This document shows positions 51,576-56,478 of a stretch of 64,000 bases of DNA, piece after piece. The notes under the pieces were generated by a model. The model did no database searches and was not told the origin of the DNA. It saw only the letters and a list, made by a program, of their open reading frames with translations. Made by a program: the position numbers and the translations under genes. The DNA is from Yersinia kristensenii (GTDB lineage Bacteria; Pseudomonadota; Gammaproteobacteria; Enterobacterales; Enterobacteriaceae). The stretch is taken from assembly GCF_900460525.1 (NCBI RefSeq), contig NZ_UHIY01000001.1, forward strand, positions 3,348,001 to 3,412,000. Reading direction: 5' to 3'. Every line of letters starts with the position of its first letter. Position 1 is the first letter of the stretch.

Positions 51576-53552
51576 TTAAAATTTACTCGAGCTTAGAACT
51601 GTTTGTACACCAGTGTAAGATAAGTGTGAGCCAACATTATATAAAGCTCCATTCTTTGTTAAAATCTCACACTTTCCTGTTTTACATAAAACATCCACCG
51701 GATTAATTTTTAATAACCTTTTTTCATCAGCAAACAAAGTATCCAACTTGTCACTAAATTCCTTTGCTTGAATAAGCCCTGAGATATCTTTTTCGTAATA
51801 ACTCTCAGATATTTCAGCACTTGAAGTTCTGATGATATTAAAGAATTTATTTTTAACATCTTCTGTAACTGAGGGGATCGGGTATACAATGACAACATTA
51901 AAGCCTTTATCAAGCAGTAGAGTGATGTTGTTTTTATATGATGTCCAAGCTTCATCACTATCGACAAATTTACCGACAGTGATATTCGCTCTACCGTCTG
52001 AGATTGGATCTAATGTTTCTTCTTTCGGATAGGCAAATTGAGCATAGTTTGTTGCTATAAAAATAGTTGTCTTATTTTTATTCTGGATGTTGTCCAGAAC
52101 GTTCCAGCGCCTTTTGTTAACTTCAGGGCATTCAGCAACATTCCCGAACCAAAGACCAGAAACGAATGGACATTGTTCGTAATCCAGCGCAATTAATCCT
52201 TTACCTTCTTTTTCCAAATTGTTTTTTAGTGCATATGTGAAGCTGCCAGCATAGCTATCACCGAGGACAATAACAGAACCGTCACCAAATTTGCATGCTG
52301 AATAAGGGTCTCTCATCGTACATGAAGTAGATGGAGTGTTGCTTCTTAATTTAATACCCGCTGGGCCTACAAGCCTTTTAAATTCTGGCTGTGAATAATT
52401 TTCGTACATATCTCTTGCAAGTGGTGTTAAACGAGATGGAAGACCATTTGATTGAATGTTAACGATATAACTAGATGAAATAACAGCGATTAAAGACCCA
52501 TAAAAGACAAAGTTAGATATAGATGACGAGCTTCTTCTGAATACATTTTCTATATATGTATATGTAAGAACAGATAAAACAAAAATAAGAGACACAAGCG
52601 TTGCAAAGGAAGCCCATGTAATACTGTCATTTTGAATTCTGAAAAATGCAAAAACTGGCTGATGCCACAAGTAAAGAGAATATGATATTCCACCCACATA
52701 AACGACAGGCTTAAACCTTAGCAGGGCAGAACTTATACTGCTCTGCCAAGAGCAAACTATAAAACAACACGTCCCTACCACTGGGATTAGAGTAATAAAG
52801 GATGGATGTAATATGGAATCATCAAAATAAAAAAATGAAAATACAATTAAGCAAAGACCAAACGCTGTAATCAGTTCGCTGATTAATTTATTTTCTTGTT
52901 TTCTTACAAGCCATGTACATAGCCCCCCAGCTATCAACTCCCATGCCCTTGTTTGTAGCATGTAAAATGAATAGCTAATATCATTGTGAGCCTGATAGTT
53001 TGCAAAGTATAATGATGCGAAGAATATAACAATTAAAGGTATATATGTCTTTTCTTTAAAAACTCTATAAAAACAAAATAGCAAAACAGGGAAGATAAGA
53101 TAATATTGCCACTCAACAGAAAGACTCCATGTGTGAAGCAATGGTTTTAATTCGCTTGTACTCGATGTATACGGATCTTCGTAATAGAAAAATATATTAG
53201 ATGTGAATGATATTGCTGATAATAAAGAGTTGCTGAACTTTACCAATTCTGACGGTAGTAAGAAATAATAAGCAGCAACGGTTGCTGAAAACAGAACAAA
53301 TAACAACGCAGGGAAAATTCTCTTTATACGCTTAATATAAAACTTAATAAAAGAGAAATTTCCTTCTTGTAAAGAGTTACGGATAATATAAGTTATCAAA
53401 AAGCCTGATAAAACAAAAAAAATATCAACACCAAAAAAACCGCCTGGCAGAAGATTGTGCCCTAAGACCTGAAGCTTAGCGTGATAAAGAATAACCGCAA
53501 CTACAGCTAAGGCTCTAAGTCCATCCAGTTCCGGCCTAAATTTTACTGACAT
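51576..53552 (-). CDS. OafA-like membrane acyltransferase with C-terminal SGNH domain
   Basis: A 658-residue protein. Residues 1-365 form an acyltransferase-3 domain with about ten helices: LDGLRALAVVAVILYH (His24), FFGVDIFFVLSGFLIT, LHTWSLSVEWQYY (140-151) and WHQPV near 296. The periplasmic SGNH/hydrolase-like domain (about 400-658) has VLGDSYAGS (Ser433) and SHLS (His643), but the expected Asp three residues before the His is Val640. Such proteins O-acetylate LPS O-antigen or other glycans. The gene is clearly more AT-rich than its neighbours and probably acquired. AGGA 8 bases upstream fixes the start. The acceptor is unknown. Confidence 0.85.
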   Translation of the reverse strand: MSVKFRPELDGLRALAVVAVILYHAKLQVLGHNLLPGGFFGVDIFFVLSGFLITYIIRNSLQEGNFSFIKFYIKRIKRIFPALLFVLFSATVAAYYFLLPSELVKFSNSLLSAISFTSNIFFYYEDPYTSSTSELKPLLHTWSLSVEWQYYLIFPVLLFCFYRVFKEKTYIPLIVIFFASLYFANYQAHNDISYSFYMLQTRAWELIAGGLCTWLVRKQENKLISELITAFGLCLIVFSFFYFDDSILHPSFITLIPVVGTCCFIVCSWQSSISSALLRFKPVVYVGGISYSLYLWHQPVFAFFRIQNDSITWASFATLVSLIFVLSVLTYTYIENVFRRSSSSISNFVFYGSLIAVISSSYIVNIQSNGLPSRLTPLARDMYENYSQPEFKRLVGPAGIKLRSNTPSTSCTMRDPYSACKFGDGSVIVLGDSYAGSFTYALKNNLEKEGKGLIALDYEQCPFVSGLWFGNVAECPEVNKRRWNVLDNIQNKNKTTIFIATNYAQFAYPKEETLDPISDGRANITVGKFVDSDEAWTSYKNNITLLLDKGFNVVIVYPIPSVTEDVKNKFFNIIRTSSAEISESYYEKDISGLIQAKEFSDKLDTLFADEKRLLKINPVDVLCKTGKCEILTKNGALYNVGSHLSYTGVQTVLSSSKF

Positions 53553-53960
53553 GCTTTTAATCCTAAGAAATATGGTTCCATAGCTACCCGCTATAGAATA
53601 TATAAAGCTCGCATTTAATGCGGTGGATTTTAATCGTACAGCCCGATCGATACAAGAAGTTAAATCATGATTACAACCGAACTGATGATAGAAAGGTTTG
53701 AGGATAGTCCGCGCATATAGCGGTTGGTCAGGGATGCTTGGATACATACGGGCATTATCTTAACGTGTTAAACTGCTACGTGGTGTATCAGTCGATTTGG
53801 GTGTGATTGATGCTATAGCATATGGTGAGTGGGCGCGGATGCGGATGGAACATTCATATGGTAGTATTACGGGGCATAGTAGGGGTGAAAATTACTGCAA
53901 AGCAACTATCAGTCAGATATGGCATACTAATGCTGAAATTTAACCAAGAAACTTAAAAAA
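53553..53960. other. Gap between divergent acyltransferase and small exported protein
   Basis: The acyltransferase frame stays open for 65 codons upstream without family similarity, probably by chance. Nothing else is recognised. Confidence 0.35.
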
Positions 53961-54317
53961 ATGAAATATTCTACTTTAGCCGCCGTTATCATCGGTATAT
54001 CCGCCACATTAGGTGGTGTTTCACATCAGGTTCAGGCCGCTGGGGCTTCATTAATTAATCTTGACTGCGAATTGAAAGAGGGCGGCAACCTTTCTGCGAT
54101 ATTGGATGGGCCTAATCAACAGCTGACCATCGATAAGTCAGTATTTCAGTTTGTTAAAGTCAATCCGGAAGGTCAGGGTGAATCGCTAATCTTCCAGAAG
54201 TCCAGTAACCAAGAACATGTTATAGCGGCTCTTAACATTTCCACCATGCCCATTCGTTTGGCGATTGTCGATGGTGAGCAAGCAAGTCAATATATTTGTA
54301 CTTATAGCAAAGCGTAA
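53961..54317 (+). CDS. Small exported protein of unknown function
   Basis: A 118-residue protein with a signal peptide (MKYSTLAAVIIGISATLGG, cleavage near VQAAG). The mature protein of about 90 residues looks like a small beta-domain with two Cys at opposite ends (LDCEL and YICTY), well placed for a disulfide. No family was recognised. Upstream sequence is weak for ribosome binding (AAGAAACTTAAAAAA). It lies between the AT-rich acyltransferase and the LpxA-like gene, and is transcribed away from the former. A terminator-like hairpin follows at 54697. Confidence 0.75.
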   Translation: MKYSTLAAVIIGISATLGGVSHQVQAAGASLINLDCELKEGGNLSAILDGPNQQLTIDKSVFQFVKVNPEGQGESLIFQKSSNQEHVIAALNISTMPIRLAIVDGEQASQYICTYSKA

Positions 54318-54696
54318 TACTGGGATAATAATTTGAAACAGGGCTGCCATAGGGCGGCCTTTTTAGTAGTGTCACGGGGAGATTGATTATTTGCTTCTTG
54401 TTGGCAAGAAATAAAAAGTCCAGATTCATCTGAAATAGAAGATTATATTCAATTTGCCTTGATGAAACATTATAACACTGTATGATTATTAGTCGTAGGA
54501 AGTTAAAGTATAGCAGTATTTGCGTCTATTACAGCTAGTGACTCGTGGGATAAGATGTTTAACAGATAAGCACATTAGGGATATTTACAGTGTGTTTCTC
54601 TGTTATGCAATAGTCGCGCTTAGGCTGTGTAATGTTGGAGTGTACGACGGACGCTTGCACCATAACATGACAGCCGGGAAAGTACCGGCATCCTTT
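54318..54696. other. Gene-free gap, right of the small exported protein
   Basis: An AT-rich stretch. A frame of about 100 codons across 54520-54831 lacks a start signal and family character. Nothing else is seen. Confidence 0.35.
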
Positions 54697-54724
54697 AAAA
54701 ACCCTGGTTATGACCGGGGTTTTT
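54697..54724 (+). terminator. Probable terminator upstream of the lpxA-like gene
   Basis: Stem AAAAACCCTGG/CCGGGGTTTTT (one bulged base) with a TTATGA-type loop, followed by TATATGG. It may end a transcript from the left or attenuate the next gene. Confidence 0.6.
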
Positions 54725-54881
54725 ATATGGACGATCGAATCAGCATGACGAGCATATTCCCTTATTCCTACCTGTTTCTATCAGTAAATCCGATTAAACC
54801 AATGGATGGATTAGTCCTTAGTCAGCCTTGAAGTTACCCACAGAGCAGCAAGTGAGTCCTCCACCAGGAGAATTAAATAGC

Positions 54882-55670
54882 TTGATTGATAACACCGCGA
54901 AAATTTCTGCTTCTGCAATCATTGAGAAGGGGGCGGTGATTGGTGCGAATGTACATATTGGCCACTTTTGTTACATTGGTTCTCAAGTCACTATTGGTTC
55001 CGGCACGGTGCTTAAATCGCATATTGTGATTAATGGTATTACCGAGCTTGGATGTGACAATTATATTGGACAATTTTCCTCCATTGGAGAGGTTAATCAG
55101 GATCTTAAATACAAAGGCGAGAGCACTCGAGTTGTCATCGGCAGTCGCAATTTGATTCAGCAAAATGTCACTATTCATCGCGGTACTTTACAGGGCGGTG
55201 GGATTACACATATTGGTAATGATAATAATCTGATGAGCCATGTTCATATTGGGCATGATTGCATTGTGGGTGACCATTGTTTCTTGGCATCAAATGTGGG
55301 ATTAGCTGGGCATGTCGAAGTTGATGACTTTGCCATTATTAATGCCGGCAGCGCGGTGCATCAGTTTTGTGTGATTGGCACTCATGCCCTAGTGAATATA
55401 GGGGCTTGCGTGGTACAGGATGTACCGCCTTATGTTATTGCACAAGGGAATCGCGCAGTGCCTGTCGGGATAAGAGGCGCAGGAGTTCGGGATGATTGGC
55501 TAAATAGCCATGACCAACAGGCGGTTAAAGGCGCTTACGAACTTATTTATCATCGGGGTAAGCGGGTGGCTGAGGTGAATAAAGAAATTGAAATATTGGC
55601 TAGGGAGTGGCAAATATTGCTGCCTTATAAGCCATTTTTCAGTCGTTCTGCACGTGGCATTATTCGTTAA
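54882..55670 (+). CDS. LpxA paralogue (UDP-sugar O-acyltransferase fold)
   Basis: A left-handed beta-helix protein of 262 residues, exactly LpxA's length, if it starts at the TTG at 54882 with AGGAG 11 bases upstream. An earlier TTG at 54828 would add 18 residues. Catalytic His125, plus His122, His144, His160 and Lys76 are conserved at LpxA numbering. But the acyl-chain ruler Gly173 is Ile, and Asn198, Glu200, Arg204 and Arg205, involved in nucleotide-sugar binding, are Arg, Ala, Asp and Asp. It is not in the usual lpxD-fabZ-lpxA-lpxB cluster. I infer a different acyl chain and probably a different sugar substrate. Confidence 0.82.
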   Translation: MIDNTAKISASAIIEKGAVIGANVHIGHFCYIGSQVTIGSGTVLKSHIVINGITELGCDNYIGQFSSIGEVNQDLKYKGESTRVVIGSRNLIQQNVTIHRGTLQGGGITHIGNDNNLMSHVHIGHDCIVGDHCFLASNVGLAGHVEVDDFAIINAGSAVHQFCVIGTHALVNIGACVVQDVPPYVIAQGNRAVPVGIRGAGVRDDWLNSHDQQAVKGAYELIYHRGKRVAEVNKEIEILAREWQILLPYKPFFSRSARGIIR

Positions 55671-55718: not shown

Positions 55719-55742
55719 AAGGCGCCACATTATGGGCGCCTT
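55719..55742. terminator. Bidirectional terminator of lpxA-like and dsbB
   Basis: Stem AAGGCGCC/GGCGCCTT with an 8-nt loop and an A run to the left, giving a T run after dsbB on the minus strand. Confidence 0.8.
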
Positions 55743-55786: not shown

Positions 55787-56317
55787 CTATCGACTAAATA
55801 GATCGCGCCTTTTCGGCTTAACAAATTGACTGATTAGCACTAATACCGCCATAAGCAGATAAGCGGCGAAAATGCCGACTAACCATTGCGGCATTTCCAG
55901 TGACAGGAATTCCCACTGTTTTACTGCACAATCGCCGCTGGCAACAAAGATAGCGGGGAACCATTTGTCTAGTGGTAACCATGACGGGAAGCTGACAAAG
56001 AAATCACAGGTTGTGAAAGGCGATGGATGTAATTGCAGCATCGTATGTACCCAGGCTAATTGAACGCCTCTCCATGCACTGTAAATCCAGATAAAAATAG
56101 CCAGATAGCGCAAAGGGGATTTAGGTGCAATGGCACCCAGCAGTGATGCTCCAAGAATACCGAATAACGCGGCACGTTCGTAAATACACATTACGCAAGG
56201 CTGAAGCAGCATTACGTGTTGAAAATAGAGCGCAACCAATTCTAATACAAGTGCAGTCAGGGCCATTAACAGCCAAGCACCGCGCCCTTTAGAGCAGCGG
56301 TTAAGAAATTGCAACAT
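55787..56317 (-). CDS. dsbB: Disulfide bond formation protein DsbB
   Basis: A 176-residue inner-membrane protein with four transmembrane helices, the same length as E. coli DsbB. It reoxidises DsbA and passes electrons to quinones. Both Cys pairs are at the E. coli positions: Cys41-Cys44 (PCVMCIYER) and Cys104-Cys130. Arg48 is conserved. The start MLQFLNRC was set by alignment; the frame stays open 16 codons further upstream with another ATG. It lies downstream of nhaB on the same strand, as in E. coli, separated by a 14-bp inverted repeat. Confidence 0.97.
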
Positions 56318-56478
56318 ATCTTTATTTTCCATGCAGTAAGCAATTGTACTGGCAGTGTAAACCAATTCATCTTTGCTGCCAGCTACCCAAAGGTAAAATT
56401 AGGCAAAATCAGCTATTTCTCGCGTCTATCGGCCATCACGAGCATCAATTTTGCTTTGGGTGAGATATTGGTTTGTTA

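Follow-up and report, generated by a model that had tools for sequence, protein, structure and literature searches.

A second LpxA-type gene in Yersinia that keeps one half-site of the LpxA active centre and changes most of the other

What does a second LpxA-type gene do in a Yersinia genome that has its ordinary lpxA in the expected place? The question is raised by an open reading frame of Yersinia kristensenii, here called lpxA2, which lies in a window of 64,000 nucleotides (the whole stretch of DNA that was analysed). LpxA starts the synthesis of lipid A (endotoxin), and the product of the second gene, LpxA2, may do a different or a supporting job, as far as its residues indicate. The automatic annotation names LpxA2 an ordinary LpxA, and genome models would count it as a duplicate enzyme, which it probably is not. 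LpxA is strongly constrained (dN/dS 0.03 in Yersinia), and a long-lived paralogue in which one half-site is frozen and the other has been released is a natural experiment on the tasks of the parts of the enzyme.

The gene, its relatives and its history

The gene, its possible starts and its two flanking genes are placed in the window as follows.

54882..55670, plus strand: lpxA2, the LpxA paralogue, 262 codons for 262 amino acids, stop included in the coordinates, TTG start, no internal stop
54852..54881, plus strand: candidate alternative start, an in-frame GTG 30 nt 5′ of the TTG, found in 14/14 orthologues
54780..54881, plus strand: leader or upstream region of lpxA2, recognisable in 14/14 orthologues
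53961..54317, plus strand: gene for a protein of 118 aa whose N-terminus looks signal-like by eye, the left flank, not part of lpxA2
55787..56365, minus strand: right flank, which we take by recognition to be dsbB

The product aligns without a gap to residues 1–262 of E. coli LpxA (1lxa, E 4.5e-93), which bears out the gap-free alignment on which the earlier note was built. The start codon is TTG in 13/14 lpxA2 orthologues and GTG in 1/14, at the same place in all of them. The use of the upstream GTG would yield a 272-aa form, as in the database protein cluster P0001; the TTG was chosen because it coincides, in the alignment, with the beginning of canonical LpxA. LpxA2 passes two models of the LpxA family, with 292 bits for NF003657 (cut-off 226) and 265.5 bits for TIGR01852 (cut-off 231.05), and stays below the models of LpxD and of the NeuD/PglB/VioB type (TIGR01853, 68.7 bits, cut-off 242.5; NF002060, 73.5, cut-off 207; TIGR03570, 75.8, cut-off 160.8).

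The whole genome (4.73 Mb, 3 contigs) also holds a canonical lpxA, G000:C1:2331448-2332230, whose product is 57% identical to LpxA2 over residues 2–262. It occupies a cluster of the order lpxD-fabZ-lpxA-lpxB, in which fabZ and lpxB are presumably the right names, given by recognition. The gene in the window had thus been placed correctly outside the lipid A operon, and the canonical copy, which the earlier note proposed to look for, rules out lpxA2 as the sole lpxA of its genome. A duplicate of the whole lipid A pathway is ruled out as well, because the genome has a single LpxC and a single LpxB. The open copy in each of 14 genomes rules out a sequencing chimera, and a role in anti-phage defence was dropped in the absence of a PADLOC match.

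Orthologues of lpxA2 are present in 14/25 Yersinia species genomes, all open and 73–100% identical. The canonical lpxA is found in 25/25, and the 24 open copies are 56–59% identical to the LpxA2 query. The carriers include, by the named loci, Y. thracica, Y. proxima, Y. pekkanenii and Y. rohdei; of four named Yersinia loci compared with the one studied, Y. thracica is the nearest, with 93.4% over 15.3 kb. In 14/14 carriers lpxA2 is flanked by the 118-aa gene and dsbB. The dsbB locus is readable in 10/11 non-carriers and contains no lpxA2 there; in the remaining one (G296) dsbB itself was not found.

The extent outside Yersinia was judged from just two protein searches, and a family-wide search (295 genomes, at least 242 with a match) served for outgroups only. 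Among the matches listed in the protein database, the best 120 of 8000 candidates, there are nine clusters of the paralogue type (P0001, P0003-P0010). Five of the nine carry a species name, always of Yersinia (enterocolitica, sp. 1652 StPb PI, pekkanenii, bercovieri, aldovae), and P0003, from Y. enterocolitica, is 87% identical to LpxA2. In the profile search, again among the best 120 of 8000 candidates, the same nine clusters reach 519–551 bits and the next ordinary LpxA 383 bits; eight of the nine are part of the profile itself, so that their scores are high by construction and the gap below them is the informative part. P0002 also ranks high there but is a duplicated E. coli-type LpxA, and it was left out of the comparisons with 110 proteins and 135 sequences described below.

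Among the matches listed for LpxA paralogues and Yersinia lpxA in open-licence papers, there is for Yersinia the annotation of YE2286 and no functional study of lpxA2. Table 3 of PMC3079665 gives Y. enterocolitica lpxA2 (YE2286) as present in strain 8081 and absent in W22703. P0003 comes from this species too and is a gene product of the same type, and YE2286 is, by its name and species, probably an orthologue of the gene in the window; that section of the paper is a presence/absence listing, with no residues, function test or distribution. In the cold-response proteome of Y. enterocolitica, as reported in part of PMC6990146, lpxA is among the genes of the detected proteins, the copy being unspecified. 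The main text of a transcriptome paper (PMC6478967) has no mention of Yersinia lpxA2.

In a tree of 51 rows, the 14 orthologues group together in a single clade (support 100/100) on a long stem (1.0 change per site). The clade joins the enterobacterial LpxA proteins outside the Yersinia canonical clade, at a node that the tree leaves unresolved; the rows included 10/24 canonical Yersinia copies, 15/110 other database proteins, 7 family loci and 4 distant sequences. The origin of lpxA2 may be either an old duplication or a transfer. A tree of neighbouring genes was made from dsbB, nhaB and fadR of 24 genomes, with the root chosen on G257, G302 and G312. With parsimony applied by eye, the distribution reads as a single gain, on the stem toward G295 and the rest, with four or more losses: in G297, in G299 with G303, in G315, and in G305 with G306. 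In G297 a piece of the lpxA2 upstream region remains, as seen by eye against G300, and this remnant points to loss there.

The selection on the two genes can be compared through their median pairwise dN/dS, which is 0.112 among 13 lpxA2 orthologues and 0.032 among 13 canonical copies (78 pairs in each set, with G311 left out on both sides). The median dS of the orthologues is 0.95, near saturation; seven lpxA2 pairs with dS of 0.07–0.47 have dN/dS of 0.07–0.17. lpxA2 is under purifying selection and looks functional, yet it is less constrained than lpxA. The reading as a pseudogene is rejected on the dN/dS values and the unchanged sugar-face codons described in the next section.

Two half-sites of the active centre

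The active site of LpxA sits between two monomers, as described in PMC7072397 (Table 1 among others). The first monomer contacts the uridine and phosphate through E. coli L116, M118, I134, I152, M170, N198, position 200/201, R204 and R205, and the same monomer contacts part of the acyl tail at 136, 137, 155, 156 and 173. The other monomer provides the contacts to GlcNAc and the catalytic base (73–76, 122, 125, 143, 144, 160–162) and the acyl contacts 140, 142 and 158 (PMC7072397). For H122, H160 and the acyl contacts, the E. coli numbers are the P. aeruginosa positions shifted by +4. The uridine is placed differently in the E. coli and P. aeruginosa enzymes (PMC7072397), so that the list of the UDP pocket is not equally firm at all positions. 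These two sets are called here the nucleotide/acyl face and the sugar/catalytic face.

The residues singled out in the earlier note, five kept (K76, H122, H125, H144, H160) and five changed (G173I, N198R, E200A, R204D, R205D), were all confirmed in LpxA2, and Q73, D74 and Q161 are kept too. The eight catalytic and GlcNAc-pocket residues (Q73, D74, K76, H122, H125, H144, H160, Q161) are identical in 14/14 orthologues. The UDP-pocket residues N198, R204 and R205 are retained in none of the 14; among other LpxA-type database proteins, G173, N198 and R204 are each present in 110/110 and R205 in 107/110. The picture of a true paralogue with catalytic residues kept and nucleotide-contact and ruler residues changed extends to 14/14 orthologues. 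The exception is position 200, where the change is real but not diagnostic, because Glu is found in only 67 of the 110 proteins and Val in 39.

The changed positions are themselves diverse. Residue 173 is Thr in seven orthologues, Ile in three, Glu in two, Met in one and Leu in one, and Gly in none. Three of the 14 orthologues have a deletion of residues 199–203, and in another one a gap of three residues follows directly behind this stretch. The sugar-side acyl contact T140, 97% invariant in the canonical set, is Gly in 14/14. Other replacements are shared by all or nearly all orthologues (A155, S/T137, C176, R191, R/K198, an acid at 204 or 205); both R/K198 and the acid are seen in 14/14. 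The conserved basic residues K55, R91, R93, R204, R205, R209 and R224 are gone in 14/14, R216 and K220 in most orthologues, and K45, K76, R100, R255, R258 and R262 are retained in 14/14. LpxA2 is thus like canonical LpxA (TIGR01852 / NF003657; E. coli 1LXA, 2JF3, 2QIA) in length, family and the residues of the sugar pocket and catalysis, and unlike it in the lack of N198, R204, R205, G173 and several conserved basic residues and in its place outside the lpx operon.

The contrast between the faces was counted against a canonical reference set of 135 sequences, composed of 24 Yersinia copies, 110 database proteins (a few also from Yersinia) and E. coli. The canonical lpxA of G311, which is in two frames in the draft, was dropped, leaving 24/25 canonical Yersinia copies in the conservation and pN/pS counts. 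An invariant column is one with a single residue in at least 98% of the set, which gives 137 columns. On the sugar/catalytic face, 12/12 invariant columns are kept in all 14 orthologues, vs 1/12 on the nucleotide/acyl face (11/12 changed); among the remaining columns, 78/113 are kept. The Fisher p is 9.6e-6 for the faces against each other, 6.2e-5 for the nucleotide/acyl face and 0.019 for the sugar face against the other 113 columns; these values are a guide only, because columns are related by descent. R205 and T140 fall just under the threshold, and with both included the kept columns are 12/13 for the sugar face and 1/13 for the nucleotide/acyl face.

The same difference is seen within the 14 orthologues. 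The sugar face has no amino-acid change at 14 codons (pN 0.000, pS 0.60), and pN/pS is 0.32 for the nucleotide/acyl face, 0.38 for the loop 199–209 and 0.18 for the remainder. Among the canonical Yersinia copies, pN/pS is 0.054 overall, and the two faces hardly vary (pN 0.000 and 0.002). By these comparisons, the sugar/catalytic half-site is kept and fixed, and most of the half-site on the neighbouring monomer, the place of the uridine, the alpha-phosphate and the acyl tail in known LpxA, is changed.

What the product may do

Two readings lead. In the first, to which a probability of roughly 0.4 is given, LpxA2 would be a working LpxA-family enzyme, derived from an LpxA, acquired a single time in Yersinia and altered chiefly on one face, with a GlcNAc-type acceptor that is not gripped via UDP in the usual way and a short or different acyl donor. 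Such a protein would form an LpxA-type trimer, in which His125 as general base would O-acylate a hydroxyl of a GlcNAc-type sugar. The acceptor could be, e.g., a sugar phosphate, another GlcNAc-bearing molecule, or UDP-GlcNAc bound mainly by its sugar. The acyl donor would be shorter than 3-OH-C14, since every residue seen at 173 has a side chain. Selection appears to act on catalysis at a GlcNAc-type sugar and not on recognition of UDP or a C14 chain of the known type. A re-specialised nucleotide pocket or a precise ruler is not favoured, because either should be conserved, and only 198 and 204/205 (with 155 and 137) are. A new acceptor of this sort, if there is one, would mean that Yersinia makes an acylated sugar not known so far.

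The activity may be an accessory one, because the gene is repeatedly lost and because a reported carrier has only 3-OH-C14 at the primary positions of its main lipid A. This carrier is Y. enterocolitica 8081, whose lipid A, according to PMC3486919, is hexa-acylated and carries four 3-OH-C14 at both 21 and 37 °C; a tetra-acyl form with three of them is also made at 37 °C. A shorter chain from LpxA2, if it is added, thus does not show in the main lipid A of 8081. Together with the variation of residue 173, this leaves one defined shorter-chain ruler, as the earlier note had proposed from G173I, not supported as stated, and a changed acyl donor is possible. Against an enzyme for a GlcNAc-type acceptor stand two facts: no pathway gene was linked to lpxA2, and its product still passes the curated LpxA models. 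A further counter-argument is that the one-face change may concern the docking of ACP rather than UDP, because C-terminal basic residues are lost and N198, R204 and R205, together with H160, Q161 and R258, may help in the binding of ACP, as suggested in PMC6408518.

The second leading reading, possible but less probable, is that LpxA2 joins canonical LpxA in heterotrimers. In such mixed trimers, a working site would arise where LpxA2 provides the sugar/catalytic face and LpxA the UDP/ruler face, and a site with the UDP face of LpxA2 would not work, which would explain why one face is fixed and the other is not. This is in line with a half-site preserved residue for residue next to one more variable than the rest of the protein, with the contribution of the two half-sites by different monomers, as in the structural account above (PMC7072397), and with the equal length and 57% identity of the two proteins. 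A precedent within the left-handed beta-helix fold is found in the plant gamma-CA/CAL heterotrimers of complex I, described in part of PMC7447434. There, as would be the case here, the sites of a trimer lie between monomers and one paralogue has partly lost its half-sites: CAL2 is without interface histidines, and only the CA1-CA2 site keeps three zinc ligands (PMC7447434). These proteins belong to the carbonic anhydrase family and are thus a precedent for the mechanism, not for membership. The mixing of subunits fits less well with the fixed new residues on the varying face (A155, R/K198, the acid at 204/205), which suggest a role of LpxA2 of its own. If it occurs, it would be a new control over entry into lipid A synthesis.

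It is unlikely that LpxA2 is an alternative lipid A isozyme which, under some condition, would transfer a shorter 3-hydroxyacyl chain onto UDP-GlcNAc. The replacement of G173 by a residue with a side chain in 14/14 orthologues would suit this role, as G173M makes E. coli LpxA a C10 enzyme according to the relevant part of PMC6408518, and so would the scores above the curated LpxA cut-offs. Temperature-responsive paralogous primary acyltransferases are known from LpxD1/LpxD2 (PMC10248169, in the part describing them). The LpxD1/LpxD2 pairs of Francisella and Leptospira, paralogous primary acyltransferases in one pathway, are comparable in this respect; they differ in being LpxD and not LpxA, the Francisella pair alters the acyl chain with temperature, and the likeness is by description only (PMC10248169). 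A second lpxA-type gene in one genome, as here, has been reported in Geobacter sulfurreducens, where the part of PMC3087551 concerned describes an independent, lineage-specific duplication; this, too, is likened by description only. Against such an isozyme speak the loss of N198, R204 and R205 in 14/14 orthologues, a variable residue 173 that is Glu in two of them, and the four 3-OH-C14 of the 8081 lipid A at the two temperatures, 21 and 37 °C.

Acyl transfer to a different nucleotide sugar through a re-specialised nucleotide pocket, as had been proposed from the changes at 198–205, is improbable. R/K198 and the acid at 204/205 could be a recognition pair, but the rest of the loop is among the most variable functional stretches, to the point of the deletion of 199–203 in three orthologues, and no nucleotide-sugar gene was recognised by eye among the neighbours of lpxA2. 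With pN/pS on this face and in the loop well above the value for the rest, the proposal is not supported as stated, and the interpretation in the earlier note is, overall, partly supported. Least probable of all is a dispensable gene on its way out with no present function, for which the four or more separate losses on the tree of neighbouring genes, a selection that is weaker than that of canonical lpxA by a factor of about 3.5 and the TTG start might speak, and against which stand the open frame in 14/14 carriers, the unchanged 14 sugar-face codons among 14 species and the low dN/dS of the seven less diverged pairs.

Neighbours and a candidate small RNA gene

The other features around lpxA2 are the following.

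51576..53747, minus strand: gene for an AT3-SGNH (OafA-like) acyltransferase (PF01757 + PF19040), GC 35% vs 47% for the window
54459..54728, plus strand: candidate non-coding RNA gene, directly 5′ of lpxA2
54459-54486, plus strand: promoter-like site of the candidate RNA
about 54588-54690, plus strand: conserved core of the candidate RNA
about 54697-54724, plus strand: hairpin followed by a T run, in the candidate RNA
55719..55742, minus strand: terminator-like hairpin between the convergent lpxA2 and dsbB

The acyltransferase gene, to which the earlier note had drawn attention as a neighbour, is real, but its functional link to lpxA2 is rejected: its GC is low, and no copy was found in the 23 other Yersinia stretches around lpxA2/dsbB, 20 of which reach the junction on the ycgN side and three of which stop short. 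Weaker relatives (35–46% identity) occur in nine other genomes, at other places or on other contigs. The gene sits between a ycgN-like gene and the 118-aa gene. Other inserts of 2–4 kb are present at the same junction in G300, G302, G304 and G313, and the junction therefore looks like an insertion hot spot. An integrase-like fragment was also noted there by eye (L121 4588-5385). The 118-aa gene is found in 24/24 Yersinia loci examined, with 37–97% identity in the other 23, and its product has no significant family match. On the other side of lpxA2, the stretch of the terminator-like hairpin was looked for in 10 genomes without lpxA2; it is clear in four of them (G297, G299, G303, G315), weak in three and absent in three.

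To judge from its folds and conservation, the DNA that separates lpxA2 from the 118-aa gene resembles a small RNA gene. It is present in 9/14 carriers of lpxA2 and 0/11 non-carriers (9/25 genomes). Its predicted fold is more stable than 200 shuffles (z -4.3), and its core is highly conserved. Promoter-like matches in the region are no more frequent than by chance (5 found vs 3.7 expected), and the terminator scan lists none in it; the hairpin and T run are visible in the folds. The candidate belongs to no Rfam family, with nothing near a gathering score, and its alignment has no compensatory changes.

Three observations concern other genes of the set. G299, which is without lpxA2, has a second LpxC-type gene (G299:C1:2859495-2860316, 346.7 bits); the other 24 genomes have one. 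In the Y. rohdei draft G311, which does carry lpxA2, the canonical lpxA (L152, G311:C128:17000-20000) is read in two frames near codons 201–211, perhaps through a draft error. The dsbB of G312 (G312:C1:2419445-2420020) contains one in-frame TAG.
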